Shown: in pieces, positions 39,676 through 63,752 of the stretch
Layout: each line of letters begins with the position of its first letter
Numbering within the stretch: position 1 is the stretch's first letter
From: Pirellulales bacterium
GTDB lineage: Bacteria; Planctomycetota; Planctomycetia; Pirellulales; Lacipirellulaceae
Reading direction: 5' to 3'
Assembly: GCA_019636345.1 (NCBI GenBank)
Contig: JAHBXQ010000002.1
Location: 558,001 to 622,000 of the forward strand
Length of the DNA: 64,000 bases
The notes under the pieces: model-generated
Database searches by the model: none
Told to the model about the DNA's origin: nothing
The model's input: the letters and a program-made list of their open reading frames with translations, nothing else
Made by a program: the position numbers and the translations under genes

Positions 39676-42573
39676 TCACTCGCCGACTGTGATCCGCGAT
39701 GTCGCCGGCATCATGCCGGTCGCCTCGGCCGTCAGTTCCGCCGCGCCTGGGCCTTCGTCGCGCGAGCGGACGACGACCATCGCCTTGCCGTGGAAGAGCG
39801 AGATTGCATCCCCCTGAAACGGCTCGAGCGACAGCGGGTCGCCGTTGCCGAGGCCGACGACTTCGGCGGGGCCGCTCAGCGAGACGCGGACCTTGTCGCC
39901 GGCCAGCGGGCAAGTAACGCCGTGCTCGTCCAACGCCTCGACGAGCACGAAGCTCAGGTCGTCTCCGTCGGCCTTGATCCGATCGCGATCGGGCGAAAGC
40001 CGAAGGCTCGCCGGCGGGCCGGGCGTTCGCATCGTTGCGACGCCGATTTGCTCCTCGCCGCGGTACGCGACAGCCTTCAGTTCGCCCGGCTCGTAGAGGA
40101 CGTCGTCCCACCGCAAGCGATACTGACGCGTGACGTCGTAGTAGGGGCTGTCGACCTGGGCGGGATAGACGCGCACGTCGACGATCTCTGGAGCAGCGTC
40201 GTTGCGCGTCTCGGTGAAGTCGACCCGCAGGTAACGCCCTGCCGCCGCAAGATGGTGGACCCCCTCGCGCGGCGCACCCCACATCGGGGCGTCGCTTGGC
40301 GCCTTGGCGCTAACGGTCTCCCAGGTCGTGGCGTCGTCGGAGACTTGCAGACGGTAGCCGTAATTTTTCGTTTCGCCGCGGAATCGCAAGTGGACCGAGC
40401 CGATCTGCTGCGCGACGCCGAAGTCTAGCTGCAGCCAAGCGGTTGCGGTTCCGCGCTCAGTACGCCACGCCGTGCCGTCGCGATCGTCGATGGCGAGCGC
40501 AGCCAGCTCGGTTGCTGCGCTTGCGCTGATCGCGACGGTCTGCGCTTGGGTCAGGCTCATCGGCCGGGGAGCGATTTCCCCCTTTGTTCGCCGACCGAGC
40601 GATCGGCCGTTGAGGAACAACTCGGCGGAGTCGCCGCTCGTGTAGACGAACACCGGCACCGGCTGGCCGACCCGGTCGGGCCAGTTCCAATGGGGGAGAA
40701 TGTGGACCGTCTCGACATCGCGGCGCCAGTGGCTGCGATAAAGCCAATATCTGTCCTTGGGAATGCCGCACAAGTCGACGATGCCGAAGTAGGAGCTCTT
40801 GGCGTCCTGCTCGAACGGGGTCGGCTCGCCGATGTAGTCGAACCCGGTCCAGACGAACTCGCCGGCGACGAACGGGTCGGCTTCCATCAGCCGGAATTCG
40901 ACGTCGGCCAGATCGGACCAGGGAGCCGCGTTGAGGTCGTAGGAGTCGACCTGCTTGCGGGCGGAGTACTCGGTCTTGAGCCCCGGCAGCGGCAACTCGT
41001 AGAACCCGCGGGTGCTGAGCGCCGAAGCGGACTCGCTGTAGATGATTGGCAGGTGAGGCGAGCGCTGGCGGAACGCGGCGTACCGCCGGGCGTAGTTCCA
41101 GCCGGTGAGATCGAGCTTGTCGAACATCCCCTGGGCGACCTGTTGGGGGATGTGGCACCCCAGCCCGACGGGGCGCGTTGCATCGAACGACCGGGCGAGG
41201 TCGGCGATCATGGCGACCCGTTCGGGCGTCACCCCCTCGCGATCGCCGGGAATCTCGTTGCCGATCGACCACACGACGACCGACGGGTGATTGCGATCGC
41301 GCTTCATCATCGCCCCGAGGTGCCGCTCGGCGTGCTCGCGGTGCGACGGTTTGCCGTCGACCCGATCGGCGGTGCCGTTCCATTTGTCGAACGCCTCGTC
41401 CCAAACGACGATCCCCATCCGATCGCACAGGTCGAGCACCTCGGCGGCGGGGGGATTGTGGCTAGTGCGCAGGGCGTTGACGCCGATCTCTTGCATGATT
41501 TCCAGTTGCCGCTCGGCGGCCCGGACGTGGAAGGCCGCGCCGAGGGGCCCCAGATCGTGGTGCAGATTCACCCCTTGGAGCTGCACGCGGCGGCCGTTCA
41601 TGTGGAAGCCGTCGTCCGCTGTGAACTCGAACGTACGGATGCCGAAGGGGACCGCGACCTGGTCGACGAGCTCCCCGGCGTGCAGCACCGCGACTTCGAG
41701 CGTGTACAGCTCGGGATGGTCGACGTCCCACCGCCGCACCGGGGCGACGGACAACGAAACCGTCGCCTCCGAGGCGCCGGGGGCGAACTCTTGGGCGAGC
41801 GCCTGCTTGGCGACCTGCTTGCCGTCCGGGGCGAGCACTGTGACGACGAGCTCGACCTGCGCGGCGGTCGCCTCGCAGTTGGCTAGGGCGACCACCGCTT
41901 GCACCTCGGCCCGATCGTCGGCGACTTGGGGCGTCGTCACGAAAACGCCGTGATAGTCGACGTGCACCGGGGAGCGGAGTTCAAGCGTCGCTTTGCGATA
42001 GATCCCGGCGCCGGGGTACCAACGGGTTTGATGTTTGGTCGTGTCGACGCGCACCGCGACCACATTGTCGCCATGCAAATCCACAAAGGGCGTCGCGTCG
42101 ATCCGGAAGGGCGTGTAGCCGTAATCCCATTCGCCAGCCAGATGGCCGTTGACGTAGACCTGCGGGAACGCCATCACCCCGTCGAAGTCGAGATAGACGC
42201 GCGTCCCGGCGGGTTCGTCGAGCTTGACGTGCCGGCGGTACCAGCCGACGCCGCGCCAAGGCAACTTGCCGGCGTAGCCGTTCTCAGCGGGATCGAACGG
42301 CCCGGCGACGGCCCAGTCGTGGGGGACGCGCGCTTTTTGCCACGCGGCGTCGTCAAACTCGGCGGCTTCAGCGCCGGCAGGGTCGCCTAGGCAAAACCGC
42401 CAGCCCTGCGTCAGCGCAACTGACCGGCGACCGGCCGGGCGGGTTGCAGGGGAGTTCTCCGCCACGGCGAGCGGACTTGGCACGGCGATCACGGCCGCCA
42501 GGATCGCTGCAGCGGAGAGCGTCGCGCGGGTCGGCAGGGGAAGGAGTCGCGACGCAAGGGGCGAGCCAATCAT
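39676..42573 (-). CDS. Glycoside hydrolase family 2 protein, probable beta-galactosidase
   Basis: The 965-aa secreted enzyme (signal ending near AVAE) has a sugar-binding jelly roll (about 50-200), an Ig-like domain (205-310) and a TIM barrel (about 312-600). The acid/base is Glu440 in WSIGNE and the nucleophile Glu514 in IYSES. Behind the barrel, LFLNGRSLG marks a DUF4982-type domain interrupted by an F5/8 discoidin-like module (about 690-810), with a last Ig-like domain at the C-terminus. Beta-galactosidase is favoured by the operon with a GH53 galactanase; GH2 also includes mannosidases and glucuronidases. It is the last gene of the operon, 3 bases after the GH53 stop. Confidence 0.9.
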   Translation of the reverse strand: MIGSPLASRLLPLPTRATLSAAAILAAVIAVPSPLAVAENSPATRPAGRRSVALTQGWRFCLGDPAGAEAAEFDDAAWQKARVPHDWAVAGPFDPAENGYAGKLPWRGVGWYRRHVKLDEPAGTRVYLDFDGVMAFPQVYVNGHLAGEWDYGYTPFRIDATPFVDLHGDNVVAVRVDTTKHQTRWYPGAGIYRKATLELRSPVHVDYHGVFVTTPQVADDRAEVQAVVALANCEATAAQVELVVTVLAPDGKQVAKQALAQEFAPGASEATVSLSVAPVRRWDVDHPELYTLEVAVLHAGELVDQVAVPFGIRTFEFTADDGFHMNGRRVQLQGVNLHHDLGPLGAAFHVRAAERQLEIMQEIGVNALRTSHNPPAAEVLDLCDRMGIVVWDEAFDKWNGTADRVDGKPSHREHAERHLGAMMKRDRNHPSVVVWSIGNEIPGDREGVTPERVAMIADLARSFDATRPVGLGCHIPQQVAQGMFDKLDLTGWNYARRYAAFRQRSPHLPIIYSESASALSTRGFYELPLPGLKTEYSARKQVDSYDLNAAPWSDLADVEFRLMEADPFVAGEFVWTGFDYIGEPTPFEQDAKSSYFGIVDLCGIPKDRYWLYRSHWRRDVETVHILPHWNWPDRVGQPVPVFVYTSGDSAELFLNGRSLGRRTKGEIAPRPMSLTQAQTVAISASAATELAALAIDDRDGTAWRTERGTATAWLQLDFGVAQQIGSVHLRFRGETKNYGYRLQVSDDATTWETVSAKAPSDAPMWGAPREGVHHLAAAGRYLRVDFTETRNDAAPEIVDVRVYPAQVDSPYYDVTRQYRLRWDDVLYEPGELKAVAYRGEEQIGVATMRTPGPPASLRLSPDRDRIKADGDDLSFVLVEALDEHGVTCPLAGDKVRVSLSGPAEVVGLGNGDPLSLEPFQGDAISLFHGKAMVVVRSRDEGPGAAELTAEATGMMPATSRITVGE

Positions 42574-42576
42574 TCT

Positions 42577-43986
42577 TCACCGTGAGGGGGAGCGGCGCCA
42601 ACGCCAGGCGATCAACGCAAGCGATGCGGCGACGGCCAAGGCGCTGGGTTCGGGAATCGTCGTTGCAGGGGCTTGGAAAAACTCGGTCAGGGCTCGTTGC
42701 CAGACGAGGAGATCGGCCCCGTCGACGCGCCCGTTTCCGTCCGCGTCGGCGTCGAGTCCTTGCCCAGCGAGGCCGTACATCGAGGACCAGATCGCCAAAT
42801 CGTCGCCGTCGACGACCCCGTTGAAAGTGAAGTCGCCGGGTAGCGGGGGATTCACGGCTCGGAACACGTCGATCGCCGGCAACAGATTGCCGCCGGCGTC
42901 GAACAGCCCATAGCGTCCCCCTTCGTAAACGCTCAGTCCGCTGACGGGAACGGCCTCAGGATACCACCAAAACACCCCGCGGCCCAAGTCGCCGGGGACG
43001 TTTTGCATGAGGTCCACCAGACTCTGCAAATAGGCCTGCTGGCCGGCGGGGGTGACGGGGAACTCGTACTCTTGCGGCTCGAACTGGGCGCCCCGCGACG
43101 GGAACCCGGCCTCGACGATCACCACGGGTTTGCCATACGTCGCCGCGGTGTTGTTGACGTTTTGCTCGACCTGGGCGATCGTCCCGTGCCAGCGCGGATA
43201 GTAGCTGTACCCGATCATGTCGAAGTCGACGTTTCGTGCGACGAGCCGGTTGAAGTACGACGAGGTCGTGCCCCATGCGTCGCCCCGATCGTGATGGAGC
43301 ATGATCAGCGGTTCCTGCTCCGGGCCGGCCCCGGCCTTTGCGCCGGCGATGCCCGCTTTGAGGAGGTCGGCCAGCCGATCGAACCCGGCGTTGTGCGAAC
43401 CGCCGCTCCAGGGGTAGCCGTCGTTCCACAAGAGCCCATTGGAGATTTCGTTGCCAATCTGCACCATTTCGGGAGCGGCGCCGGCGGCGACGAACGCGGC
43501 CATCGAGTCGCGGGTGTAGTCGTGGACCTGCTGCTCGAGCGCGGCGCCGGTGAGATTCGTCCAGGCGGCCGGCTTGGTCTGTCGCCCGGGATCAGCCCAC
43601 GTGTCGGAGTAGTGGAAGTCGAGCAGCAGCTTGGCGCCGGAGGCTTTGACTCGCTGGGCGAGGTTGATCGTGTAGGCCAAGTCGTTCGTGACGACCCCTT
43701 GGCCGTTCGGGTTGACGAACAGCCTCAGCCGGAACCAGTTGACCCCGTGCTCGCGGAACATCGGCACGAGGTCGCCCGGGCGCCCCGCGTCGCGGTAGAC
43801 CGCGCCGCGACTCTCAAGTACAGGAAGAGCCGAAATATCGGCGCCGGTCATGAACTCCGCCGCGGCCGGCGCGACGCCGAGCAGCAAGCTTGCCGCCGCA
43901 CAGACTGGCGCACTTGCCCGACAGAATCGCTTGGCCCGTCGTCCGCCGCGGGGCGACGAGGGGAAGAAGAGTCTTCGCCTGTTCAC
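42577..43986 (-). CDS. GH53 endo-beta-1,4-galactanase with dockerin-like and PEP-CTERM tail
   Basis: From GTG 43986 the protein is 469 aa, with a signal ending in APAAAE. It opens GADISALPVLESRG and carries the GH53 core with FRLRLFVNP, LLLDFHYSDTWADP, acid/base Glu180 in MVQIGNEISNG and nucleophile Glu292 in VIVEAGFP. Two dockerin-like loops (FNGVVDGDDLAIW, DADGNGRVDGADLLVW) and a PEP-CTERM tail (IPEPSALAVAASLALIAWRWRR) follow. It cleaves beta-1,4-galactan, the side chain of pectic rhamnogalacturonan. The GTG is chosen because GAGAGGGA lies just upstream and the previous stop ends 2 bases before it. Confidence 0.92.
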   Translation of the reverse strand: MNRRRLFFPSSPRGGRRAKRFCRASAPVCAAASLLLGVAPAAAEFMTGADISALPVLESRGAVYRDAGRPGDLVPMFREHGVNWFRLRLFVNPNGQGVVTNDLAYTINLAQRVKASGAKLLLDFHYSDTWADPGRQTKPAAWTNLTGAALEQQVHDYTRDSMAAFVAAGAAPEMVQIGNEISNGLLWNDGYPWSGGSHNAGFDRLADLLKAGIAGAKAGAGPEQEPLIMLHHDRGDAWGTTSSYFNRLVARNVDFDMIGYSYYPRWHGTIAQVEQNVNNTAATYGKPVVIVEAGFPSRGAQFEPQEYEFPVTPAGQQAYLQSLVDLMQNVPGDLGRGVFWWYPEAVPVSGLSVYEGGRYGLFDAGGNLLPAIDVFRAVNPPLPGDFTFNGVVDGDDLAIWSSMYGLAGQGLDADADGNGRVDGADLLVWQRALTEFFQAPATTIPEPSALAVAASLALIAWRWRRSPSR

Positions 43987-43988
43987 GA

Positions 43989-45782
43989 TCAGTCCCTCTC
44001 GGCGCCCTTGTCCGCCGAATGCAATTCGAGCGGAATTTGGTACTTCTCGGACAGATACGCGACAGTCGCCGCCAGTCGTTCGTCGGACGCCGCGTCGTTG
44101 AAGATCATCAACTCGGCGAGATCGCCGTGGAAAAACAGCTCCTTCCACGCATGGCGGCCGATGATCTTACGCGAGGTGAGCGCCTGAGGGGCGAAGGCGC
44201 GCGACTCGCCGACGCGCCGGCCGTTGATCCACAGGTCGGCCTTGCCGCGGCGATAGTCGTAACGGTAGGCGATGATCGCAGGGCGTTCGGGGCCCAGCGG
44301 GTCGGCGTCGACGCGCCCGGTCTCGACGACGGCGCTTCCGATGAACCCGGCGAACACCTGGGCGTTAATCCGCGAGGGGCGAAAGTCGGCTTCCAACAGC
44401 GGTTCGCCGATCTGCAGGATGCCGGGGGAGAGGGTGTTGCTCGCCTCGCGGCTAGGGGGGCCATCGTAGTTAATGATCTGCCCCCCCCACTGGCGACCTG
44501 GTGCGAACGCCCCAGGGGAGAATTGACACGCCAGGACCACGGTCTGGTCGTCGGTCGTTTCCAGCGGCGTCGTCACCAAATGACTGGCCGCGCCGTCGAA
44601 CCGTATCGCGGGCAGGCCGTTCATCGCCTGCGGTTCCAACCGTGGTCGGGCGGCGGGTTCGGACTGCGTTGCGTCCTCGGCCGTGCGGTTGTCGGACAAT
44701 AGCAGATCTTGCCATGCGAGGACCCGCCCCTCGCGATCGGTCGACACCCCCGCGTCGGCCGCCAGCCACAGGGCCAGCCCGGAGCCGTCGAAGGGGTCGG
44801 CGCCCTTCCGCTGCGGCCTACGCAAGGCCATCAGCGGCGAGTATTCCTCCGCATTGAGCAAGATATCGACCGCCGCTCCCCCCTTGTCGACTTTGACCGC
44901 GCCATTTTCGTGGATGTGGACCGACTTCGAGCGGTCTGCTTCCGCGCGCTGCGAGGGACTGTAGAGGACCTCCCCTTCGAAGACGTGCAATTCGGCGTCT
45001 CCGTCCTCGTCGACGGAAATTCCGAATGCGGTGCCGAGATCGACGAAGTCGACTTCGGGCGAGAGGATGGCGAACGAGAAGGCGCGCCGCGGGACGTTGG
45101 CCGCCAGCTTGCCTCGGCGCAGCACCCCGACCATTTTGTCGCGGATCGTGAAGCTGCAGGGTCCCTGCAGCATGACCTCGGCGCCGCACTCAAAGGTGAT
45201 CTTGGCGAGCCCGCGATCGAGTTCAACGACGGCGCCGTCGACGAGTTGCTCGCCATGCCGGTAGCGGACGGCGCCGGGCGTCCAGACCGCGTCGGACAAT
45301 TGGGTCACGGTCGCCGCGACCGAGGTCCGAGCCGGCGCGTCGAGTTCGGCCAGGGGGGCGTCCGGCGCACGAGCGGGCCAGGCGAGGATCGCCAGCGCCG
45401 CGGCCGCCAAGGCCAGCGGGACCAAGGCGAGCAGGCCCCGCGACATCGCTCGATTTGGCGCGAGGGGGGCGTCGCAGGAGTCGATCGGGACATCGTCGCC
45501 TGCCTCGAACCGCGAACCGCCGGCTTCGGTCCGCGGCCGCACCGGCCCCGGCATCCCCCCGGCGTACTGGCTCATAATCGAATGAAGCTGCTCTTCGGCG
45601 ACCAGCTCCAGGATTTGGCGATGCACGAGCGACCGCTCCGCCATCCGCGCGGCGACGGCCTCGTCCTCGGCGACGAGCCGTTCCAGCAGTCGCACGTCCT
45701 CGACGCTGGCGACGCCGTCGAGATACCGATCGACGAGCGGATCGAGATCCTGAGGCAATCGCAACGGGTCGGCGTCGGTCAT
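43989..45782 (-). CDS. FecR-domain membrane protein with LamG-like C-terminus
   Basis: The 597-aa protein starts with a cytoplasmic segment (1-110) that resembles anti-sigma domains (LVDRYLDGVASVEDVRLLERLVAEDEAVAARMAE), then one membrane helix (about 115-135), a FecR domain (about 155-275, with VDFVDLGTAFGISVDEDGDAELHVFEGEV) and a LamG/concanavalin-like domain (about 325-585). In Planctomycetota such proteins stand beside ECF sigma factors and are thought to act as their anti-sigma or signal transducers. It starts 3 bases after the sigma factor stop and ends 2 bases before the galactanase start. A sugar-binding role for LamG is inference. Confidence 0.88.
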   Translation of the reverse strand: MTDADPLRLPQDLDPLVDRYLDGVASVEDVRLLERLVAEDEAVAARMAERSLVHRQILELVAEEQLHSIMSQYAGGMPGPVRPRTEAGGSRFEAGDDVPIDSCDAPLAPNRAMSRGLLALVPLALAAAALAILAWPARAPDAPLAELDAPARTSVAATVTQLSDAVWTPGAVRYRHGEQLVDGAVVELDRGLAKITFECGAEVMLQGPCSFTIRDKMVGVLRRGKLAANVPRRAFSFAILSPEVDFVDLGTAFGISVDEDGDAELHVFEGEVLYSPSQRAEADRSKSVHIHENGAVKVDKGGAAVDILLNAEEYSPLMALRRPQRKGADPFDGSGLALWLAADAGVSTDREGRVLAWQDLLLSDNRTAEDATQSEPAARPRLEPQAMNGLPAIRFDGAASHLVTTPLETTDDQTVVLACQFSPGAFAPGRQWGGQIINYDGPPSREASNTLSPGILQIGEPLLEADFRPSRINAQVFAGFIGSAVVETGRVDADPLGPERPAIIAYRYDYRRGKADLWINGRRVGESRAFAPQALTSRKIIGRHAWKELFFHGDLAELMIFNDAASDERLAATVAYLSEKYQIPLELHSADKGAERD

Positions 45783-45785
45783 GGG

Positions 45786-46343
45786 TCAGGCTCTCCCTTG
45801 AGCCAAAGTACGTCGAATGCAATCCAGCAGTTCGGTTCGGACGCGGTGGAGCATCACCGATACGGCCGAGGCCGACATGCCAAAGCGGACGGCGACGTCG
45901 GCCACGCGGCAGTTTTCGCCGTAGCGCATCTGCAGCACGTCGCGGCGGCGTCCCTGGATCTTGGCCATGCAGTTATGCAGGGCGTCGCGGCGCTCTTCGG
46001 CGGCCGGTTCCAGGCGTTCGAGCGCCGCTTCAAGCTGCTCGAGCGCGGGTTCGTTCAGCACCAGCCGATCGCGCGTGCGGGTTCGGTAGTACTTGAGGAT
46101 GCGGTGTCGCGCGATGCCCATCGCCCACGACGCGAACGATCGTCTTCGATCGAACTCGTGGAACTTCTCGGCGCACACCTGGGCGACCTCCTGGACGATG
46201 TCCTCGACGTGGTGCCGATCGACGACATTGGCGCTGACATAGGCCGAGATCACGGCCTGGGCGCCGACCCACGCGCCCGCCAGCTCGCGCATGCGAGCGA
46301 CGTCGCCGGGGTCTGTTCGGTTCTCATCGTGCGAGTCGGTCAT
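45786..46343 (-). CDS. ECF-type RNA polymerase sigma factor
   Basis: From ATG 46343 the protein is about 185 aa. Region 2 includes DRHHVEDIVQEVAQVCAEKFHEFDRRRSFASWAMGIARHRILKYYR; region 4 ends in a helix-turn-helix (VADVAVRFGMSASAVSVMLHRVRTELLDCI). The spacing and the RRSFASWAMGIARH motif match the Planctomycetota/Rhodopirellula ECF group. An in-frame GTG 18 bases upstream is a possible alternative start. It heads a four-gene operon whose other members are a FecR/LamG protein, a GH53 galactanase and a GH2 enzyme. Confidence 0.93.
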   Translation of the reverse strand: MTDSHDENRTDPGDVARMRELAGAWVGAQAVISAYVSANVVDRHHVEDIVQEVAQVCAEKFHEFDRRRSFASWAMGIARHRILKYYRTRTRDRLVLNEPALEQLEAALERLEPAAEERRDALHNCMAKIQGRRRDVLQMRYGENCRVADVAVRFGMSASAVSVMLHRVRTELLDCIRRTLAQGRA

Positions 46344-46796
46344 TGGTCCGCCGCCTGTCACTGGGAGGAGCGTGCGCGACGAAGGCGCAGAATCTCCCGT
46401 AGTACTTCCCCCCTCGGTCGCGGTTGATTATCCAAGATCCAGGCGAATTTTCTGAGATTTTCGCCGGCGTTCGGCGGGAAGGGACGGGGGCGCCCGCGTG
46501 TCGCGATCCTGAGTGCACCGCCGACGTTCCGTTGCGGACGGGGGCCTCGGACCAAGGGCCGGAGCCTGGCCCGGGGCGCCGCCGTAAGCTTCCGGATCGG
46601 CAAGATATCCCGATTTTTTAAGCTAAGAGTCTGGAGTCGACGGGGAATCATTTCGTGGAGGCAACGCCCTGCCTGCCTGCGCGATCCGTAAGGGAAACGG
46701 GCGTACTTGTCACGGCGGGCCCAAACTGCCGTAGCCGACGTTGAGTCGGCCGGTTTGGGCGAACATTCTCATCGACGGCTTGGGAGCTTGCGACTC
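46344..46796. promoter_or_regulatory. Divergent promoter region between sigma operon and PEP-CTERM cluster
   Basis: This 453-base gap must hold promoters for both transcripts. It is AT-richer at 46435-46465 and 46605-46625. The notable element is the composite hairpin listed at 46719-46760. No gene seen. Confidence 0.5.
46719..46760 (+). promoter_or_regulatory. Composite stem-loop in leader of first PEP-CTERM paralogue
   Basis: GCCCAAAC (46719-46726) pairs exactly with GTTTGGGC (46753-46760), enclosing a second perfect stem GCCGAC/GTCGGC (46734-46739 with 46745-46750). It ends 36 bases before the ATG at 46797, so it would lie in the 5' leader if the transcript starts upstream. A related GTCGGC/GCCGAC stem (47558-47563 with 47572-47577) precedes the second paralogue. 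Confidence 0.5.
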
Positions 46797-47528
46797 ATGA
46801 GATGCACCAAATTGGCGGGTTTGGCCCTGGCAGCGACTCTGCTGACGGCCCCGGTCGCGCGGGCCGGCGAGTTCACGGTCTCGTATCTGGACGGCGGCAG
46901 TTGGAGTTCCGTCTACGCCCAGGGATTCTCTCCCTCGCTAGGCGACACGCCCAGCCAATCCCTCGGAGCCGGCGACGCTGTGTCGCTCCGCAAGTTCGAG
47001 TTCTTCAAGTCGGGCAACGCCGATGCGGCCGCTGACTTTCAGTTGGCGATCCTCAGCAACATCTTCGCCGATCTGACGGGACTTTCAACGGGCCACGGCG
47101 CCTTCGTCGGTTTGTCGACGAACACGATCGCCAGCACCGCGGGGATCGCGACGGGGGATCCGATCGTTTTTGACTTCGCCGACTTGCCGCTCGCCTACGG
47201 CGGCAACTATGCGGCGGTGCTGGTGACCGAAAGCGCGGGAGCGTTGACGCCCGTGCTGGTCTCGGCCCTGACGACCAACTACGTCGAGACCCCGCCGGGG
47301 TCGGGCAGCTATCACCCGGCGACCAACTACGGGGCCGAGGATCAGTTTCAATACGCCACCAGCAACTTCATTGCGACGAATCAATTCGGCTCGTTCTTCA
47401 ACACGTTTTCGTTCGCCGGTGACGCCAATTTTCGGGCGACGCTGTTTGCGGTGCCGGAGCCCGAGACGCTGGCCGGGGCGGCCGTTGCGGCGACGATCGC
47501 CGCGCTGTTTCGTCGCCGGCTTCTCTGA
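46797..47528 (+). CDS. Secreted PEP-CTERM protein, paralogue 1
   Basis: The 243-aa protein has a signal ending in APVARA, a beta-rich body and a PEP-CTERM tail (VPEPETLAGAAVAATIAALFRRRLL). It is clearly paralogous to the next gene: shared segments include YAQGFSP, FKSGN(A/V)D(A/S)AA and [11 protein letters not shown]. There is no dockerin in this copy. Domain family not recognised. It starts the plus-strand cluster opposite the sigma operon. Confidence 0.82.
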   Translation: MRCTKLAGLALAATLLTAPVARAGEFTVSYLDGGSWSSVYAQGFSPSLGDTPSQSLGAGDAVSLRKFEFFKSGNADAAADFQLAILSNIFADLTGLSTGHGAFVGLSTNTIASTAGIATGDPIVFDFADLPLAYGGNYAAVLVTESAGALTPVLVSALTTNYVETPPGSGSYHPATNYGAEDQFQYATSNFIATNQFGSFFNTFSFAGDANFRATLFAVPEPETLAGAAVAATIAALFRRRLL

Positions 47529-47600: not shown

Positions 47601-48560
47601 ATGATGAGAATTCTCCGTGCCGCGCAAGCGGCGACGATCGGGGCGGTGCTGCTCGTCGCCGGCGAAGCCACGCGCGGCCAAACGCCGTTCACCTCGTCGT
47701 TCACCACGGGTTCCAATTGGAACACGATTTACGCCCAGGGGTTCTCGCCGATGGAGAACGCCAGTCCCGACCCGGGGCTGAGTCCGACCGATCTTGTGGC
47801 GCTCGACGCGTTTCAGTTCTACAAGTCGGGCAACGTCGACTCGGCGGCGAATATCCAGCTCGCGATCGTCAGCAACTACTTTCTCAATCTCGACGAGTTG
47901 ACGACGCTTTCGACGGAACTCGTCGGTTTGTCGACGAACACGATCGCGTCGACCGCTTCGATCGCCATGGGAGACCCCATTGCCTTTCAGTTCAGCAGCA
48001 TTGAGTTGACGTTCGGCGACGACTACGCGGCGATCTTCGTGACTCGCAGCGGCGACTCGCTGATCCCGGTGCAAGTGTCGGCGATGATCGCCGACTATGC
48101 GGAGACGTCCCCCGGCTCGGGCGTCTGGGCGCCGACGGCCGATTACGGCGATCCCGAGATTGATTACTTCAAATCGGTCAGCAATTTCCTCAGTTCCAAT
48201 GAGTTCGGGACTTACCTCGTCACGTTCAACCCGCCGTATGCGGACGCCGTGTTTGTCGCATCGTTCAACCAGCCTGGCGCACCGCTCGCCGGCGACTACG
48301 ACGACAACGGAACGGTCGACGGCGGCGATCTGACTGTCTGGAACGGGCAGTACGGGCAGACCGGGGCATCGTTGGCGGCGGACGGCAACGGCGACGAGAT
48401 CGTCGACGGAGCCGACTACCTGCTGTGGCAGCGGCACTTCGGGCAGGGCGGGCCCGCGGTCGTTGCGGCCGCCGCGGTTCCCGAGCCGGCGTCGTTCGCG
48501 CTCGCCGTCTTGCTGGGCGGGGGACTGGCGGCGATCGCACGGACGAGCTCTCTCGGGTGA
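47601..48560 (+). CDS. Secreted PEP-CTERM protein with dockerin-like segment, paralogue 2
   Basis: The 319-aa protein shares its body with the preceding gene ([38 protein letters not shown]) and adds two EF-hand-like loops ([30 protein letters not shown]) before its tail. The tail begins [20 protein letters not shown] but ends in ARTSSLG with few basic residues, weaker than a usual PEP-CTERM. The gap to paralogue 1 is 72 bases. Function unknown; location next to galactanases suggests an extracellular binding or scaffold role. Confidence 0.82.
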
Positions 48561-48589: not shown

Positions 48590-49597
48590 ATGTCTGTGAG
48601 GAACGATCGCACCGCGCTGCGCCGACATGGTTTCACCCTCGTGGAGCTTCTGGTAGTGATCGCCATCATCGGCGTGCTGGTGGCCTTGCTGTTGCCGGCG
48701 ATCCAAGCGGCGCGCGAAGCGAGCCGACGTACCCAGTGTCTCAATCAAATCCGTCAAATTGCGATGGCGGCCTTGAACTACGAGTCGGCGCGGCGACAGT
48801 TCCCCCCCTCGGTCGACAAGGGGTCGTACAGCTATCTCGCGACGACCCTCCCTTACTACGAGGGGCAGGCGATGTACGCCGCGATCGACTTCACGCGGCG
48901 CCCCAGCGACGCGACGCTGCCGTTCGAGACCCCGTTCTTGCGGTGCCCTAGCCAGGAGGCGGTCGAGCCGACCGTCGTCTTCAACGGCACGAGCGAGACG
49001 ACCGAGGAAACCTCCAAGCGGGGGCACTACTACGCCGTGAACGGAGCGAAGGTCGAGGACCGCTGCCCCGGCACGGAACCGTTTCAGCTCACCTCGTGCG
49101 GGCCGCTTGCGAAGATGACGAGGTGCGAAGACGCCGCCGACGCCCGCGGCGGACACGCCACCAACGGCGTGATGTACCCGCTCAGCACGACCAAGCACGG
49201 CGAGATCACCGACGGCACGAGCAACACGTTTCTGGTCGGCGAGTGCTCGTGGAATTTCGGCGGCGTCGCGGCCCCCTGGTACACGGGCGCCGGGTTCTGG
49301 GCCGGCAACTTCGACAACGCCGAGCGACTGCAATGGCTCGCCTCGCGAGTGGGGGACGGGTTCTGGATTTACAACTCCGCCCAGATTCGCTGGGGATTGC
49401 AGGAGCGATCGAACGTGCTGAACGTCACCGCCAAGAAGGCGTGTCACAGCGATCTCAGCTTCGGCAGTTCGCACGCCGCGGGGTGCCACTTCGCGATGGC
49501 CGACGGTTCGGCCCGCAACGTCGCCGCGTCAGTCGACCTCGTCGTGCTGCAGTACTTTGCCTGCCGCAACGACGGACTGACGGCGACCATGGATTGA
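48590..49597 (+). CDS. DUF1559 protein with type IV pilin-like N-terminus
   Basis: From ATG 48590 the 335-aa protein starts with the prepilin signal [31 protein letters not shown], cut by a prepilin peptidase after Gly, with Glu at position 5 of the mature form. The body is DUF1559 (SBP_bac_10-like), a family greatly expanded in Planctomycetota. It has the usual end with [25 protein letters not shown] sits upstream. It may form pseudopili or display extracellular domains; role unproven. It lies between the PEP-CTERM paralogues and the second GH53 gene. Confidence 0.93.
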
Positions 49598-49632: not shown

Positions 49633-50796
49633 ATGCCCGCGCCGCAATCGCTTCTGCCGTTACGAGCCTCGGTGCAGAAGCAAGGCGTGCGACAGCAGCG
49701 GGTCGCGCGCCGGACAGCCAAGGGGCGGCTCGTCGCGGGCCTGGTGCTGGCTCTCGATTTTTCTCGACTGGCCGCGGCCGAAACGGCCTCCGAGCGGCTT
49801 GGGTACGCCGTCGGCGCCGACGTGTCGTTCCTCTTCAGCGCCGAGCAGACGGGACGCCAGTTCAAGGACGACGGGGTCGTCAAGCCGGGATTGCAGATCC
49901 TGAAGGACCACGGCTACGACTGGGTTCGACTGCGGTTGTTCCACACGCCGACCCGGTTGCCAAACGATTTGGAGTACACGCTCGCCGCGGCCAAGCAGGC
50001 CAAGGCGCTGGGTTTTCGCTTCCTGCTCGACTTCCACTACTCCGACACGTGGGCCGATCCGGCGAAGCAGTTCATACCCATTGCGTGGCGCGAGTTGGAC
50101 CATGACGGCTTGGTCGAGGCGGTTCGCGCCTACACTTGCGACGTGATCGCCGCCTTTCGTGAAGCGGGGGCAGCACCCGACATGGTGCAGATCGGCAACG
50201 AGGTGATCGCCGGAATGCTGTGGCCCGCTGGCCGGCTTCCGCAACGGTGGCCCGAGTTCGCCGAGTTGACAAGGGCCGGCGTGCGGGGAGTTCGCGACGG
50301 CAGCGGTTCCGACCAGCCGCCGCTGGTGATGATCCACATCGATCGCGGCGGCGATCTGCCGGCGACCAAGTCGTTTTTCGACAACTGCCGCCGACATGGG
50401 ATCGAATTCGACGTCATCGGGCAGTCGTACTATCCGTGGTGGCACGGGTCGTTGGACGACCTGCGAGCGAACCTCGACTTCATGGCTGCTAGATACGAGA
50501 AAGATATCGTGATCGTCGAGGCCGCCTACAACTGGCGCCCTGCGGAGTACCGCGATCGGCCGGCGCCGTATCCGGAAACGCCCGAAGGGCAGCGGGCGTT
50601 TCTGGCGGCGCTGGACGAGACGGTTCGGGCGACCCCCCACGGCCGCGGCAAGGGGGTGTTCTGGTGGGAGCCGGCCGTGGCGGGAGGTCACATCGCCGGC
50701 CGCGGCATGTTCGACGACCAGGGGAATGCGCTGCCGGCGGTCAAAGTATTTGATCGCCGAGTCGAAGCTTCGGCGACCTCCTCCGTCGCGGAATGA
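49633..50796 (+). CDS. GH53 endo-beta-1,4-galactanase, second copy
   Basis: From ATG 49633 the protein is 387 aa, with an N-terminal signal/anchor (GRLVAGLVLALDFSRLAAAE). The GH53 core includes GADVSFL, RLRLFHTP, LLDFHYSDTWADP, acid/base Glu190 in MVQIGNEVIAG and nucleophile Glu296 in IVIVEAAYN. Unlike the first GH53 it has no dockerin or PEP-CTERM tail, so the two enzymes probably act in different places. It closes the plus-strand cluster, 35 bases after the DUF1559 gene, and converges with GH28. Confidence 0.92.
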   Translation: MPAPQSLLPLRASVQKQGVRQQRVARRTAKGRLVAGLVLALDFSRLAAAETASERLGYAVGADVSFLFSAEQTGRQFKDDGVVKPGLQILKDHGYDWVRLRLFHTPTRLPNDLEYTLAAAKQAKALGFRFLLDFHYSDTWADPAKQFIPIAWRELDHDGLVEAVRAYTCDVIAAFREAGAAPDMVQIGNEVIAGMLWPAGRLPQRWPEFAELTRAGVRGVRDGSGSDQPPLVMIHIDRGGDLPATKSFFDNCRRHGIEFDVIGQSYYPWWHGSLDDLRANLDFMAARYEKDIVIVEAAYNWRPAEYRDRPAPYPETPEGQRAFLAALDETVRATPHGRGKGVFWWEPAVAGGHIAGRGMFDDQGNALPAVKVFDRRVEASATSSVAE

Positions 50797-50860: not shown

Positions 50861-52279
50861 TCACTCCGGTTGGGAGTAGTTGAGCAGGTGCAACGAAACG
50901 ACGTCTTCGAGGATGCTCGGCTTCGCCGCCCCGGCGAAGCGGCAGTTGGCGATCGTCACCCCCGTGATCGGGCTTTCCGGCGTCCCCATAAGATACAGGG
51001 GGCGCTTCGATTTTTCCGCCGTGACGTTCTCGATGTGGATGTTGCTGACGACCGGGGGATGATTGCCGGTCTCGCGGAAGTAGCGCAGATCGATATGCAC
51101 GACCGCGTCGGCGACTTGCCCCACCCGCACGTTGCGGACGTACATGTTCTGCAGGTACCCGCCCCGAGCCAAGTTCGACTTGAGCCGGATCGCGCGGTCC
51201 AATTGAGGGCTGTCCATCTCGCAGTTCTCGACCCACACGTTGCGGATGCCGCCGCTCATTTCGCTCCCCAGCGTGACCCCGCCGTGGCCGTCCTTCATGC
51301 GACAGTTGCGGACGCAGATGTTCTCGCTGGGGACGTTGATCCGTCGGCCGTCGGCGTTGCGGCCGCTCTTGATCGCGATGCAGTCGTCCCCCGTGTCGAA
51401 CAGGCATCCTTCGATGAGCACGTTCCGACACGACTCAGGATTGCACCCGTCGTTGTTCGGGCCGTGACTGACGACCGTGACGTTGCGCACGGTCACGTTC
51501 TCGCACAGCACGGGATTCATCACCCACATCGGCGAGCGGAGGATCGTGATCCCTTCGATCAGTACGTTGCGGCAGCGATAGGGCTGAACGAAGTTGACGC
51601 GCAGTTTCCCGTCGGCGCCGAAGACGCGCTCCTCCGGCGGCTTGCCGGCGTCGGACATGGCGTTGAGTCGCGCCACGTCGTCGTTGCCGGAACCTTTCCA
51701 CTTCCACCAGTTCTTGTCGGAAGCTCGGCCGTCGATGGCGCCCTCCCCGGTCAGGGCGACGTCGTGCTCGTCGTAGGCGTAGATCGGCGGCGAGAAGTTG
51801 CGGACCTCGACCCCCTCGAAGCGGGTGAGCACGACCGGCAGAAAGTCGTTCGGATCGTTGCTGAACAGCAGCACCGCGTCCTTCTGCAAGTGGAGGTCGA
51901 CCTTGCTCCGCAGTCGCAACGGACCTTTGACGAACCACCGGCCTGCGGGGACGACCACGCGGCCTCCCCCTGCGGCATGGCAGGCTTCGATAGCGGCTTG
52001 AATCGCGTCACGGCTGTCGGGGCCGGTGACATCGTCCTGGGCAGGGCTCGTCGTCGGTTGGGCGCCGTGCTCGGCGATCGCGAAATCGCGTTGGGGAATC
52101 TCGGGCTCGGCGATCGACGCCAACACCGCGTCCAACTTGGCCCAGGCCTCGCCGGGGTCGTCGGCCGTTGCCGGCGAAACCGACCCCGCGAGCATCGCCC
52201 AGACCAAACCGGCGGCGACGGTTCCGGCTTTTAGGGAACGAACGCCTAAGACAAATGCAGCGGACAGGATGGCAACCAC
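50861..52279 (-). CDS. GH28 polygalacturonase-like protein
   Basis: The product of up to 472 aa starts at GTG 52279 and has a signal ending in VSPATA. It folds as a right-handed beta-helix with the GH28 catalytic set: NNDGCN (D277; the family has NTD), GDDC (D298 and D299), GHGG (H332) and RLK (R365-K367). It hydrolyses alpha-1,4-galacturonosyl or related bonds in pectin; endo, exo or rhamno-specificity cannot be told from this. It shares a divergent promoter region with the XylR-type regulator. Confidence 0.92.
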   Translation of the reverse strand: MVAILSAAFVLGVRSLKAGTVAAGLVWAMLAGSVSPATADDPGEAWAKLDAVLASIAEPEIPQRDFAIAEHGAQPTTSPAQDDVTGPDSRDAIQAAIEACHAAGGGRVVVPAGRWFVKGPLRLRSKVDLHLQKDAVLLFSNDPNDFLPVVLTRFEGVEVRNFSPPIYAYDEHDVALTGEGAIDGRASDKNWWKWKGSGNDDVARLNAMSDAGKPPEERVFGADGKLRVNFVQPYRCRNVLIEGITILRSPMWVMNPVLCENVTVRNVTVVSHGPNNDGCNPESCRNVLIEGCLFDTGDDCIAIKSGRNADGRRINVPSENICVRNCRMKDGHGGVTLGSEMSGGIRNVWVENCEMDSPQLDRAIRLKSNLARGGYLQNMYVRNVRVGQVADAVVHIDLRYFRETGNHPPVVSNIHIENVTAEKSKRPLYLMGTPESPITGVTIANCRFAGAAKPSILEDVVSLHLLNYSQPE

Positions 52280-52563
52280 GGGACGACCTCTCCAGCAAGA
52301 CGTGCGGCGGCGACGGAAAAGCTAAAAATCGGCCGTGATAAGTGCGATTTGGCGTCGCAATGCGACTCCAAGCGGCGGCAAACTGCAAAAAACCCGCACA
52401 GATTTTTGCGTTTTTGTCCCCTGTTGCATGACATAATTGCTCAGAAAGCGTTTGCGGGCCAGTAGGCTTTGTTGCAATAATTTCCGCAAAATACGCAAGG
52501 CCCGCGGCGAACTATTACTGCCGACGGCGAGACCAGTCAAACCCGCGATTCCCCTGCCGCCTT
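52280..52563. promoter_or_regulatory. Divergent regulatory region, GH28 / XylR-type regulator
   Basis: This AT-richer 284-base region holds several TTTGCG half-sites in both orientations: within TTTTTGCG at 52403-52410, TTTGCG at 52451-52456, its inverted partner CGCAAA at 52485-52490 and CGCAA at 52494-52498. GCAAAAA (52385-52391) pairs with TTTTTGC (52403-52409). TTGC-N10-GCAA spans 52472-52489. These are candidate operator sites for the adjacent AraC/XylR regulator. Confidence 0.5.
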
Positions 52564-53742
52564 TTGCACGATCGGGACCCGAACGTGGCACGAATTCGTG
52601 AAATCGCCTTGGCATTTCCCCGTGGCGCCCACCAGGAGGTGTTCATCGAGGGCGTGCTCAAGTACGCGGTCGAGAACGACTGCAACTGGTCGTACATTAC
52701 GGCCCCCGAGTCGTTGTCGTTGTCGGTGCTCGATCTCGTCGGTTGGCCCGGTGACGGGATCCTCGCCGCGCTCAATACGGAGGAAGAAGCACGATGCGCC
52801 GCGAACATGGCGATTCCGGTCGTCAACATTTCCAGCGCCCTTGCCGAATCGCCGGTGCCGCGCTCGATCGTCGACAACCCGGCGATTGGCGCCATCGCGG
52901 CCGAGCATTTGATTTCGAAGGGTTTTCGCGCCTTCGCGTTCTACGGTCTGTCGGACGTACAGTACTCGCGTGAGCGGCTTGCCGGGTTCGTCCAGCGACT
53001 TGAAGCGGAAGACCTGACTTGCGTCGAGTTCCTGTCCCCTCCCACGTTCGGTCTGGGGGGGAACAAATGGCTGCAGCAGCACCGGGCGCTCGCCGTATGG
53101 CTCGCCCAATTGGCGACTCCCTGCGGGTTGTTCGCCGTGTCGGACTACCGCGCCCGAATGGCGTTGGATGCTTGCCGCCAGATCGGGAGCGAGGTTCCCG
53201 AGAAGGTCGCCTTGATCGGCGTCGACAACGAGCAGATCATCTGCGAGCATGCCCGTCCCCGACTCACGAGCGTCGCTCGCAACGACCGGCTCGAAGGATA
53301 CCGCGCAGCGGCGATGCTCGATCGTCTGATGCGGGGCGAGTCGCAGTTGCTCGACGAAACCCCGATCCCGCCGCTGGAAGTCGTCCAGCGCGACTCGACT
53401 GCGACGTTCGCGGTCGAAGACCCGCGGTTGCGCGACGCGTTGGCGTACATTCACGAGCGGCTTGGCACGCCGATCACGATCGACGACGTGTTGAAGCACG
53501 CCCGCGTCTCACGACGGTGGTTGGAGTACGCGTTCCGCGGGGTGCTGCACGAAACGCCTTACCAGTACCTGCGACGACAACGCCTGTCGCTCGCCAAGCG
53601 GCTGCTTGCCGAACAGTCAGGCGTGAAGATGCAACGCATTGCGCAGCTCTCCGGGTTCTCGTCCGGCAAGCATCTGGCGATCGCGTTCCAAAAAGCGTAC
53701 GGCGTGAGCCCGCGAGATTTTCGCCGCAACGCGCGTTCGTGA
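52564..53742 (+). CDS. XylR-type AraC family transcriptional regulator
   Basis: The product of up to 392 aa joins a LacI/periplasmic-binding-like sensor domain (about 10-275, with NPAIGAIAAEHLISKGFRAFAFYG and LIGVDNEQIICEHARPRLTSV) to a C-terminal AraC helix-turn-helix pair (about 290-390, with RRWLEYAFRGVLHETPYQYLRRQRL and GFSSGKHLAIAFQKAYGVSPRDFRR). This is the architecture of E. coli XylR. In Planctomycetota such regulators accompany sugar and sugar-acid genes. The frame opens with TTG at 52564; a GTG at 52585 (VARIREIALAFP) is an equally likely start. It probably controls GH28 and tagaturonate epimerase. Confidence 0.92.
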   Translation: MHDRDPNVARIREIALAFPRGAHQEVFIEGVLKYAVENDCNWSYITAPESLSLSVLDLVGWPGDGILAALNTEEEARCAANMAIPVVNISSALAESPVPRSIVDNPAIGAIAAEHLISKGFRAFAFYGLSDVQYSRERLAGFVQRLEAEDLTCVEFLSPPTFGLGGNKWLQQHRALAVWLAQLATPCGLFAVSDYRARMALDACRQIGSEVPEKVALIGVDNEQIICEHARPRLTSVARNDRLEGYRAAAMLDRLMRGESQLLDETPIPPLEVVQRDSTATFAVEDPRLRDALAYIHERLGTPITIDDVLKHARVSRRWLEYAFRGVLHETPYQYLRRQRLSLAKRLLAEQSGVKMQRIAQLSGFSSGKHLAIAFQKAYGVSPRDFRRNARS

Positions 53743-53814
53743 CGTTCAGGTCCGAGCTTGCGGACGAGCCGTTTCTGTTCGGGGCCAGCGCGACGAACTG
53801 AACCACAGCTGAAT

Positions 53815-55110
53815 TCAGGACCACTGCAGCGCCCGCAGGTGGCGCTGGAAGTGGTCGCGGAGCAGCTCGGTGTACGTATCGAGATGCGTTGCCAGGAGAT
53901 CGGAGAGCATCGGGCCCAGCCGCGGATCAGTCAGGACCGAGCCGAACGTGCAGTGCAGGATTTGCCGCCCCGGCTCGGTGAAGCCCTTGCCGTGGGGGGT
54001 GACGCTCCACTGGTCGAGATAGATCCGCTCGAGCACCGCCACGTCGAGGACTTCGTCCGGGCTGGGCGCATCCTCGACGCGAGCCGAGACGTGGTACGTG
54101 GCTTTGTCGCGGTCGTAGTGCATGCGGGAGAAATCGATGATCTCGCGGAAGAATCGCTCGTCCTGGCGGGCTGCGACGCGGATCGCTTCCAGGTAGCTGG
54201 TGCCGGCGGTCTTCACGTGGAATCGCCCGCGGGTGATCTGCGCCAACTGGCTGTACATCGACAGCTTGTCGCTGCCGGAGTGGAGCGACAGCTTGTACGG
54301 GCCCAATTCCGCGGCGATTTCGGCGTGCAGGCGGAGCTGTTGCTCCAGTTCGGCGACGTCGCCCCGGTAGTCGATCCCCTTCTCGAATTCGCCGACGAAC
54401 CGCGGGGCGAGGCTCACGATCCGCACCCCGGCTTGTTGGAGCTGATCGGCGATGATGAAGTGCTCGGCGGGAGTCGTCGGCTCGGCCGTTTCATCGACCG
54501 ACAGCTCGATTTCGAACGGTTGACGGAGACGCTTGGCCTCGGTCTCGACGGCCCGCGACAAATCGATCGCGCGCTGGATCGCCCGGCCGTACTTGACGGC
54601 GGCCCGCATGAGGGTCGTTTCGTCGAGCGTGATCGTCCCGGCGACCATGCGGATGACTCGTCCCGAGTAATCCGCAAACCACGGAGCCGAATCGCGCACC
54701 TCGGCGAACTTGGCCGCGAGCGTGGCGGCGTCGTAGCCGTCGGCTTGCTGATCGACCTCATCGGACGGGTCGAGGGTGAAGAAGACGAACCCCGCGGCCG
54801 CAGTGCTGCGAATGTCTTCGAGCGTCTTGAGATGATCCGCGTCGGCCGACCAAGGGTCGTCGAAATTCGCGTCTCTCAGCACCGCAGCCGCCGCCCGCAT
54901 CACCTCCTCGGGAGAACGCTGGGTGCGCGTCATCTCGCGGATCGATTGCTGGGCGAAGATTCCGCGGATGGGGCCTCCCGCCTCGCGCAAGGCGGCCAAA
55001 TGCCCGGGGGTGGCGACCCCCAAGCGATCGCCGAACCCGAAGCTGGGCGCCAGTCCCAACGCGGACGGGGTCGCGCGGCGTACGGCCGCCTCGCTGCTCA
55101 CTGGCGTCAT
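53815..55110 (-). CDS. uxaE: Tagaturonate epimerase
   Basis: From ATG 55110 the 431-aa product matches the UxaE family, which interconverts D-tagaturonate and D-fructuronate in galacturonate catabolism. Seen here are FGFGDRLGVATPGHLAALREAG near the start, TLDETTLMRAAVKYGRAI, FEIELSVDET, and KLSLHSGSDKLSMY and FHVKTAGTSYLEA in the barrel. The neighbouring GH28 would supply galacturonate. Uronate isomerase and later enzymes are not in this window. It converges with the regulator gene. Confidence 0.88.
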   Translation of the reverse strand: MTPVSSEAAVRRATPSALGLAPSFGFGDRLGVATPGHLAALREAGGPIRGIFAQQSIREMTRTQRSPEEVMRAAAAVLRDANFDDPWSADADHLKTLEDIRSTAAAGFVFFTLDPSDEVDQQADGYDAATLAAKFAEVRDSAPWFADYSGRVIRMVAGTITLDETTLMRAAVKYGRAIQRAIDLSRAVETEAKRLRQPFEIELSVDETAEPTTPAEHFIIADQLQQAGVRIVSLAPRFVGEFEKGIDYRGDVAELEQQLRLHAEIAAELGPYKLSLHSGSDKLSMYSQLAQITRGRFHVKTAGTSYLEAIRVAARQDERFFREIIDFSRMHYDRDKATYHVSARVEDAPSPDEVLDVAVLERIYLDQWSVTPHGKGFTEPGRQILHCTFGSVLTDPRLGPMLSDLLATHLDTYTELLRDHFQRHLRALQWS

Positions 55111-55987
55111 AAGTGACTCCTTAGAACTGCCGTGTCCCAAACTCGACCGAGCGGGCGTCAGATGGCAGTTTGATACTGGCTATTATTGCGACCGACCCGG
55201 TCGCGATCAGGCTGGAATTGCGACAAGGAGGTCCAAAAATCCGGAATGCCAACGCCCGGAGAAGGACCGGCGAAACCGCGGGCTCCCGAGTGGGCGGCCC
55301 CGTACTTCAGATTCCTTAATTCCAGATTAACCGAGGAAGCGATTGCAGCCACATGGTCGCTATTGCAAACACAGGAGAAAAAAACGCATCGCACGATGCA
55401 GGCAGGAATTGGCTCCTTGTAGCCGACCGGTCGTTTTTGGCGAAGCGTGCCGTTTTCTGGGCCGATTTGAGGGGTTTGCACGAGCTTCCCCGCGGCAAAC
55501 AAAGGAGAACCGGCAATGACCGGCAATCCTGGGCTGGATTCCATTCTCACCACTGGAGGTCAAGATGCGATGAACCAAGAGCCAAGACGCGGCCTCGACT
55601 TCGCCTTGCCCAACTCCGGCAGTGTGCTATCCTTTGTGCAACTTCAAGGTGTGAGACCTTCCGGCATTGCCGGTCGTGGTCATTCCCATTCGATGCAGCC
55701 GGCTCCGCGGGAGTCGGCCGACTGTCTTCGGTCCGCCCGCTCGCGGGATTTGCCTGGCCGCCGGCGTCTGCCCTCGAGCGCGATTGATTCTCTTGCCCCT
55801 TGCGGCCTCCGCCGCACCGCCGCTGCGCGTGCGGCGTACGACCGGTCCTGTGACGTTCACGGACCTGGAGGCCGGCAGTATGGCAAACGCCCCCTATTTC
55901 CTGGGGGCCGTCGTGCAGCAACGAACGGGCGAACCCGCCGGGTTTGCGTTCGCGCTGGCCGGCGATCATTTTTCAGAAAGACACTCT
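55111..55987 (+). promoter_or_regulatory. Long structured leader/intergenic region of RNA helicase
   Basis: This 877-base gap sits between uxaE and the helicase. It contains GCGACCG-ACC-CGGTCGC (55188-55204); an exact 10-bp inverted pair ACCGGCAATG (55509-55518) / CATTGCCGGT (55665-55674); the small hairpins AAGGT-GTGAG-ACCTT (55646-55660) and CCGGC-ATT-GCCGG (55661-55673); and an ATG at 55516 behind AAAGGAGAA. These can form alternative structures. The frame from 55516 overruns the helicase start and looks non-conserved, so I do not call it a gene. Confidence 0.45.
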
Positions 55988-57433: not shown

Positions 57434-57522
57434 GCGAAGTCAAGGACCGGCCCGTCGGCGGGCAGAATTGCTCGCCGACGGCGGCTGCCTTGGGCAGCGC
57501 ATCGCGAAGATTCGTGCGCGGT

Positions 57523-58884: not shown

Positions 58885-59035
58885 GGCTCAGTCCAAGAGA
58901 GCAGGAGCGACGACCGGACACCGATCAGGCTCGCCGAGTGTACTCGGCGAGGGTCGAACAGGACACCCGAGGCCGCGCCAGGTCCGCCCAAGCGTAGCGC
59001 AAGAAACACTTCCGGAGCGGAGGGGCGCACCCGCG

Positions 59036-60100: not shown

Positions 60101-60132
60101 AGTTCGTGGCAGCCTCGAGCGGGAGTGGAAGG

Positions 60133-60144
60133 TGAACTAGTTGA
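60133..60144. promoter_or_regulatory. Candidate LacI-type operator 1
   Basis: TGAACTAGTTGA is a near-perfect palindrome about 33 bases upstream of the lacI-type start. It agrees with the second site at 10 of 12 positions (shared T-AACTA-TTGA frame). Confidence 0.55.
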
Positions 60145-60244
60145 ATCTCGAGCACGTCGGCGAAGCGGTAATCTTGGAGCATATTCGGCGATTCGCCGGA
60201 CGGACTCAATGCGTCGCAGGGGCAAATCGCGAAAGAATACCTGC

Positions 60245-60256
60245 TCAACTACTTGA
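60245..60256. promoter_or_regulatory. Candidate LacI-type operator 2
   Basis: TCAACTACTTGA has TCAA/TTGA arms around a CTAC centre, about 182 bases upstream of the GH130 start, and matches operator 1 with two differences. Confidence 0.55.
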
Positions 60257-60437
60257 ACATGCCCGCGACCCGATCTAAGCTAAACCTTCGGTTCGCAATC
60301 CCGCAACGAGGCGGGCTGCGACCGGCTCCTCGCCTGTTCGGGCGGCGACTGGACAAGCCCCGTCCGACTGCTTCCGACCGCAGGACCGCCCGGGGACGCC
60401 CGGCATCGACTCTCCGATTTACCTGCAAACGGATTCC

Positions 60438-63747: not shown

Positions 63748-63752
63748 GAGCC

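Follow-up and report, generated by a model that had tools for sequence, protein, structure and literature searches.

We analyzed a 64,000-nucleotide stretch of DNA (hereafter the window; contig JAHBXQ010000002.1 of assembly GCA_019636345.1) from a 5.18-Mb genome of a Pirellulales bacterium that shares its family, Lacipirellulaceae, with Botrimarina. Within it, an extracytoplasmic function (ECF) sigma factor and a membrane sensor stand beside two galactanases of family GH53 and a GH2 beta-galactosidase. With a probability that we put at roughly 60%, this locus is a self-contained galactan-utilization unit under its own transmembrane sigma switch. The proposal draws on gene order and its conservation, a DNA element present in both arms of the locus, the predicted fold of the sensor, conserved candidate catalytic residues, and a sensor tree that follows the adjacent enzyme. 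The features concerned, in window coordinates, are as follows.

39676 to 42573, minus strand: GH2 beta-galactosidase, GalB-like, with an F5/8C domain (Pfam and NCBIfam matches)
42577 to 43986, minus strand: GH53a, endo-beta-1,4-galactanase with a GTG start (PF07745, 8e-88)
43989 to 45782, minus strand: membrane sensor, a FecR/LamG protein (AlphaFold model and structure comparison)
45786 to 46343, minus strand: ECF sigma factor, TIGR02989, the Rhodopirellula/Verrucomicrobium family (136.1 bits against a cut-off of 124.55)
46406 to 46432, minus strand: bipartite element of the sigma arm, GATAAT-N15-GGGGAA, one mismatch (rank 7 in the held-out scan)
46622 to 46647, plus strand: bipartite element of the divergent arm, GCTAAG-N14-GGGGAA (rank 1 in the held-out scan; exact in the whole-genome search)
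46797 to 47528, plus strand: PEP 1, PEP-CTERM-type exported protein (PEP-CTERM 16.5 bits, below the cut-off of 20.7)
47601 to 48560, plus strand: PEP 2, second PEP-CTERM-type protein (47% identity to residues 1-205 of PEP 1)
48590 to 49597, plus strand: DUF1559/SBP_bac_10 pseudopilin-like protein with an H-X9-DG end (PF07596, 2e-37, and N_methyl)
49672 to 50796, plus strand: GH53b, galactanase lacking a PEP-CTERM tail, start approximate (PF07745, 4e-89; open frame from 49096)

The core genes (sigma factor, sensor, GH53a, and GH2) run from 46343 to 39676 on the minus strand with intergenic gaps of 3, 2, and 3 bases, and from this spacing we infer that they are probably co-transcribed. An earlier note on this DNA had described these four genes, their end at 39676, their tiny gaps, and the GTG start of GH53, all of which can be read directly (the GTG is at 43986); the span it marked, 42577 to 46343, covers only the sigma factor, sensor, and GH53a.

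GH53 is present in 15 of the 396 Pirellulales genomes examined. In five of the 15, seven genes keep the same divergent order, with the sigma factor, sensor, and GH53a on one side and PEP 1, PEP 2, DUF1559, and GH53b on the other, which upholds the idea of a conserved unit of sigma factor, membrane sensor, and galactanase. These five loci come from four genera and two families: Lacipirellulaceae, with the genome under study (G000), G028, and G007, which is Botrimarina colliarenosi Pla108, and another family, with G059 and G075. Genes were called with a home-made caller that misses genes in low-GC loci, and the key genes were confirmed by tblastn. The sigma factors of the other four loci are 54-61% identical to ours, PEP 1 has orthologs in all four, and GH53b is 62-68% identical to its orthologs. 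Across the GH53 rows from the five loci, E180 and E292, which we take to be the catalytic glutamates, are invariant (10/10), and by eye GH53a carries a PEP-type tail and GH53b none in every locus; in our GH53a the C-terminus shows, again by eye, a dockerin-like repeat as well as this tail. The earlier note had counted loss of the order in relatives with intact enzymes against its proposal. The order is indeed absent from the remaining 10 of the 15 genomes, where no such sigma factor or sensor was seen in the 3.4 to 20 kb examined (the 3.4-kb contig of G216 is too short to tell), but the GH53 genes there lie outside this locus type.

The fourth slot is less constant. A GalB-like GH2 follows GH53a only in our genome, and the exact four-gene order therefore fails as a trait shared with relatives, the GH2 having been replaced or moved elsewhere. 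Its ortholog in G028 (57%) sits after GH53b, that is, in the other arm. The remaining three loci have a different beta-galactosidase in the slot: a LacZ-type GH2 in G007 and, in G059, a GH35 with a 76% relative in G075. As these families are all beta-galactosidases by name, the function of the slot seems to have been kept while the gene was exchanged, and such exchange is stronger support for galactan as the substrate than any one gene could give. The very short gap after the sensor is not conserved either, with some 33, 86, 177, and 302 bases between FecR and GH53a in the other four loci, as estimated by the rough gene caller.

Both divergent promoters carry a bipartite element, GHTAAG-N14/15-GGGKAA or a near match, in all five loci, G059 and G075 having a spacing of 18 in their sigma arms. 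Since there is no homology between the two arms, the element's presence in both suggests one common regulator. The sites were first aligned by eye and tested afterwards. An unsupervised dyad search recovered 7 of the 10 arms at up to two mismatches, whereas none of 30 shuffles gave more than 5, and all 10 at up to three, where shuffles reached 8; with G059 left out, the search at up to three recovered 8/8 arms (shuffle maximum 7). In a held-out scan of 13-22 kb on both strands, which withheld one locus at a time (G059 and G075 as a pair), the top-ranked site was a true site in 5/5 loci, and in G028 and G007 the two sites took the first two ranks. A matrix built from sigma arms only placed the held-out divergent-arm site first in four loci and second in the fifth, and matrices from the divergent arms recovered the sigma-arm site in G028 and G007, at ranks 1 and 2. 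The exact pattern has 13 matches in the five whole genomes, 6 of them at the five loci, compared with 54 for the reversed pattern, and a single match in 131 other loci (1.89 Mb, some overlapping). The unit as drawn by the earlier note was thus too small: the divergent arm with its second galactanase, which carries the same promoter element, belongs to it.

A wider regulon for the galactan element was considered and rejected, with 7 exact matches outside the loci against 54 for a reversed-pattern control. The sole exact match among the larger set of comparison loci beyond the five lies in a Verrucomicrobiales metagenome-assembled genome (L121, position 18885, plus strand). Sigma arms of the five loci have a further G-rich stretch, TAGGG or similar, 6-8 bases past GGGKAA. 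Between the divergent element and PEP 1, likely in the 5' leader of PEP 1, is a GC-rich inverted repeat, GCCCAAAC...GTTTGGGC (46719-46760).

The domain calls of the earlier note stood by profile for the sigma factor, GH53, and GH2. Those for the sensor fell short in Pfam, with a FecR score of 17.1 (gathering score 24) and a Laminin_G_3 score of 26.1 (gathering score 27.6), and the names therefore needed structural proof. A sequence search against known structures gave weak matches only. The fold came from an AlphaFold model built on an alignment of 40 relatives (mean pLDDT, the predicted local distance difference test, 82.6), which replaced a run with 5 sequences (57.9). The model has N-terminal helices at about residues 13-74, a FecR-type beta domain at about 155-306, and a jelly-roll of concanavalin/LamG fold at about 330-585; one likely transmembrane helix, at about 121-134, follows a low-confidence stretch and is itself of low confidence. 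Foldseek aligned the beta domain with PDB 4m0n (BDI_1681, a putative anti-sigma factor) at a root mean square deviation of 2.4 over 138 columns, and the Pfam FecR match passes the gathering score in two paralogs (L080 and L082). By predicted fold, single predicted transmembrane helix, and ECF sigma neighbor, the sensor is FecR-type. VIA-align matched the predicted outer domain best to a phage tailspike (Z 20.8), and also to domain 4 of the arabinanase AbnA (5hon, an entry whose title names an arabino-ligand; Z 20.1, root mean square deviation 2.7, 198 residues) and to other concanavalin-type domains, such as toxin lectin domains. The modeled fold is typical of many carbohydrate-binding domains and does not by itself identify the ligand.

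The sensor most likely sits in the inner membrane, and its outer part would therefore meet only what has crossed the outer membrane. Planctomycetes have been described as drawing labeled polysaccharide into the intermembrane space (PMC5520146, in part). In the mechanism we propose, basal GH53a at the surface would cut galactan, and fragments would enter the periplasm, where the jelly-roll domain of the sensor would bind galactan oligosaccharides. The cytoplasmic helices of the sensor may hold the sigma factor or, like E. coli FecR, activate it, and binding would lead to its release or activation. In E. coli the FecR N-terminus is required for sigma activity (PMC7406223, in part), and the sign of control is therefore not readable from sequence. 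The sigma factor would then transcribe its own operon, comprising sigma factor, sensor, surface-anchored GH53, and beta-galactosidase, and, from the common element, the divergent operon with two PEP-CTERM-type surface proteins, the DUF1559 pseudopilin-like protein, and GH53b. Capture, display, and transport are candidate roles for the DUF1559 and PEP-CTERM proteins. Four points in this scheme are inferences: the sigma factor as reader of the element, the sensor as controller of the sigma factor, galactan as the source of the ligand, and the location of the proteins.

To place the sensor among its kin, we compared 39 other full-length relatives, with neighbors counted by the home-made gene caller and a simple PEP-CTERM pattern. 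The first same-strand gene 3' of the sensor encodes DUF1559 in 11, a sulfatase in 8, GH53 in 4, GH43 in 2, and GH2 in 1; in the other 13 it is something else, uncalled, or unscanned. The design is thus a general one, in which a similar switch is combined with various enzymes and surface proteins. Of the 34 relatives for which 5 kb or more of upstream DNA was at hand, 29, among them the four other galactan loci, have a PEP-CTERM-type gene as one of their first four divergent genes. DUF1559 genes are likewise frequent companions of TIGR02989 sigma genes. Of eight such sigma genes over the cut-off in our genome, six have DUF1559 within 5 kb and all eight within 10 kb, compared with 1/13 and 3/13 for other ECF matches and with random means of 0.95/8 and 1.73/8 (points on 7 of 15 contigs). 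The same holds within 5 kb for at least 20 of 26 in G003 (random mean 2.63; 69 of 84 DUF1559 matches listed) and at least 9 of 11 in G034 (random mean 1.21; 81 of 111 listed), and among the matches listed only 1/6 and 0/3 sub-cut-off sigma genes, respectively, are near one. DUF1559 matches number 84 and 111 in these two genomes, and 65 pass the cut-off in ours.

This constancy bears on the strongest alternative, in which the switch is real and its ligand is not galactan: the outer domain would sense a product of the locus (PEP-CTERM protein or pseudopilin) or the state of the envelope, and the enzymes would be passengers of a surface-protein cassette. The divergent PEP-CTERM-type genes and the nearby DUF1559 genes are more constant than any enzyme, DUF1559 is often the first gene downstream of the sensor, and some DUF1559 genes of R. 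baltica respond to salt, cold, and heat (PMC2754498, in part). The lineage of the sensor, however, tracks the adjacent enzyme, as supported by a maximum-likelihood tree in which the five GH53-linked sensors fall on one side of a branch (100/100). Enzyme labels on this tree change 10 times, against 22.6 in shuffles (0/200 as low), a clustering that close copies favor. The sensor domain also varies among the eight cassettes of our genome, where the outer domain of the seven other sensors matches Laminin_G_3 over the cut-off in three and DUF4114 at the cut-off in one, with nothing or a match below the cut-off in three, and beta-galactosidases have been exchanged while the unit was retained. We therefore regard a nongalactan ligand as unlikely, though worth keeping in mind.

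A second alternative assigns the element to one of two one-component regulators in the window, both with sugar-type ligand domains, and lets the sigma factor act elsewhere.

52564 to 53742: XylR/AraC-type regulator
59036 to 60100: LacI regulator

The element does differ from the textbook ECF promoter. A tblastn search of the 15-22 kb surrounding each of the other four element-bearing loci, however, matched neither gene, genes further away not having been searched, and among the regulators of the window the sigma factor alone is present in all five. For that reason the sigma factor is the likeliest reader of the shared element. GGGGAAC resembles the ECF -35 sequence GGAAC. A one-component regulator as the reader strikes us as improbable. 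More doubtful again is a frozen neighborhood of a common planctomycetal ECF/FecR pair with no functional link to galactan: TIGR02989 sigma genes are numerous (8, 26, and 11 over the cut-off in three genomes) and in 10 of the 15 genomes with GH53 the examined stretch contains no such pair, but a seven-gene block kept across two families despite beta-galactosidase exchange, together with a shared promoter element, speaks against it.

Several results weigh against a galactan switch with the sigma factor as its reader. Without G059, which is close to G075, the dyad with up to two mismatches is found in 5/8 arms, a number equaled in 1 of 60 shuffles. The sigma-arm site reaches only ranks 7, 10, and 7 in held-out G000, G059, and G075, and divergent-arm matrices, which allow spacings of 14 and 15 only, place it fifth in G000 and do not recover it in G059 or G075. 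The element is no recognized ECF promoter, and its register is tentative. Concanavalin folds are found in toxins, sialidases, and pilins as well and so name no ligand. Good conservation of the outer domain extends to two sulfatase-linked sensors, whose overall identity is 39% compared with 49-52% for G028 and G007. The correlation of sigma-factor distances with sensor distances (r 0.58-0.70; 0/999 permutations) speaks for the switch but is also expected from joint inheritance, and no clear common element emerges over the 45 sigma upstream regions described below.

The two sulfatase-linked sensors, L072 and L073, are the nearest to the galactan ones, adjoining the GH53 clade with support of 98/96. 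A single promoter element for all cassettes was sought as words and dyads in 45 sigma upstream regions (5 of them galactan) and set aside, as nothing stood clearly above shuffles; one shared sigma specificity is therefore unsupported. In a separate search at E 1e-60, sensor relatives among the matches listed (three candidates per genome) came from one of 392 genomes of the phylum, our own; the other four locus genomes were unmatched, the draw probably having left them out, and the count says little.

Many anti-sigma proteins of Bacteroidota glycan loci are FecR-type, and the RsgI proteins of Clostridium thermocellum carry an extracellular carbohydrate-binding domain. The galactan locus resembles the former in joining a sigma factor and a membrane anti-sigma-type protein to glycan enzymes; it differs in that its sensor has a lectin-fold domain of its own and in that SusD (SusD_RagB) is absent from all five locus genomes, with a positive Bacteroides control. 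The independence from SusCD that the earlier note had proposed thus holds for SusD, SusC not having been searched. From the sigma-I/RsgI systems the locus is set apart by its TIGR02989 ECF sigma factor, FecR-type domain, and PEP-CTERM/DUF1559 partners. It shares the FecR-type domain with E. coli FecI-FecR and adds the concanavalin-fold domain, and unlike that system it has no recognized outer-membrane receptor gene beside the sensor among the genes scanned. In Bacteroidota, ECF sigma factors with membrane anti-sigma factors control glycan enzymes, frequently with SusC/D-type transporters, and C. thermocellum has six or more sigma/anti-sigma pairs that serve distinct regulons (PMC10766802, in part).

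Control of glycan enzymes by ECF/anti-sigma pairs is therefore not new in itself; a combination lacking SusD and including PEP-CTERM and pseudopilin partners was not met in the literature searched, although the cassette may be in print in Jogler 2012 or Wiegand 2020. Clusters of carbohydrate-active enzymes (CAZymes) with auxiliary genes have been predicted in Planctomycetota, and the authors stated in 2024 that, to their knowledge, no planctomycetal CAZyme cluster had been functionally characterized (PMC11131199); in the main text of that paper the word "sigma" does not occur. For Tuwongella immobilis, an expansion of SBP_bac_10/DUF1559 proteins with a prepilin motif is on record, 91 of them with both domains, and the section concerned draws no link to sigma/FecR cassettes (PMC8567305).

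Planctomycetes have numerous ECF sigma and DUF1559 genes whose purpose is unclear. We tentatively raise the possibility, on which we would not insist, that these bacteria possess a modular alternative to Sus, in which the TIGR02989 sigma/FecR base stays constant while the periplasmic lectin-type sensor and the enzyme slot (sulfatase, GH43, GH2, or GH53) can be exchanged, and in which a divergent PEP-CTERM/DUF1559 arm would replace SusC/D in the capture and uptake of large glycans. If the cassette works as proposed, each sigma/sensor pair would name its own regulon, and for many clusters the enzyme next to the sensor would allow a guess at the substrate. The galactan locus makes a good first case, with enzymes, sensor, element, and five natural versions, one of them in Botrimarina colliarenosi Pla108.

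Some details of the locus complete the picture. The sigma gene starts with ATG at 46343, an in-frame GTG at 46361 being a possible alternative start, and Pfam finds regions 2 and 4 in its product. The GH2 comprises TIM-barrel, N, C5, and F5/8C domains (Pfam), and its nearest NCBIfam model is GalB, at 831.9 bits under a model cut-off of 900. PEP 2 has no match in Pfam or NCBIfam. The DUF1559 frame is open from 48425, with the ATG at 48590 immediately before the prepilin motif, and the protein scores 24.4 bits for TIGR04294 (cut-off 19). Two exosortases pass the cut-off in our genome. Between 39300 and 51000, no sigma-70 type promoter was found and terminator-like sites were not in excess (9, against a shuffle mean of 8.9). 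The only Rfam match in the window is a tRNA.

Beyond GH53b, the locus adjoins a pectin enzyme for which tblastn gave no match at the other four loci, in the 15-22 kb covered at each.

50861 to 52279, minus strand: GH28 (pectin) enzyme (PF00295, 5e-30)

This gene opens a pectin-type neighborhood, from 50861 to 64000, with GH28, the XylR/AraC-type regulator, the tagaturonate epimerase UxaE, LacI, GH130, and a sodium:solute symporter, which suggests that the galactan unit may lie in a wider rhamnogalacturonan/galacturonate region.

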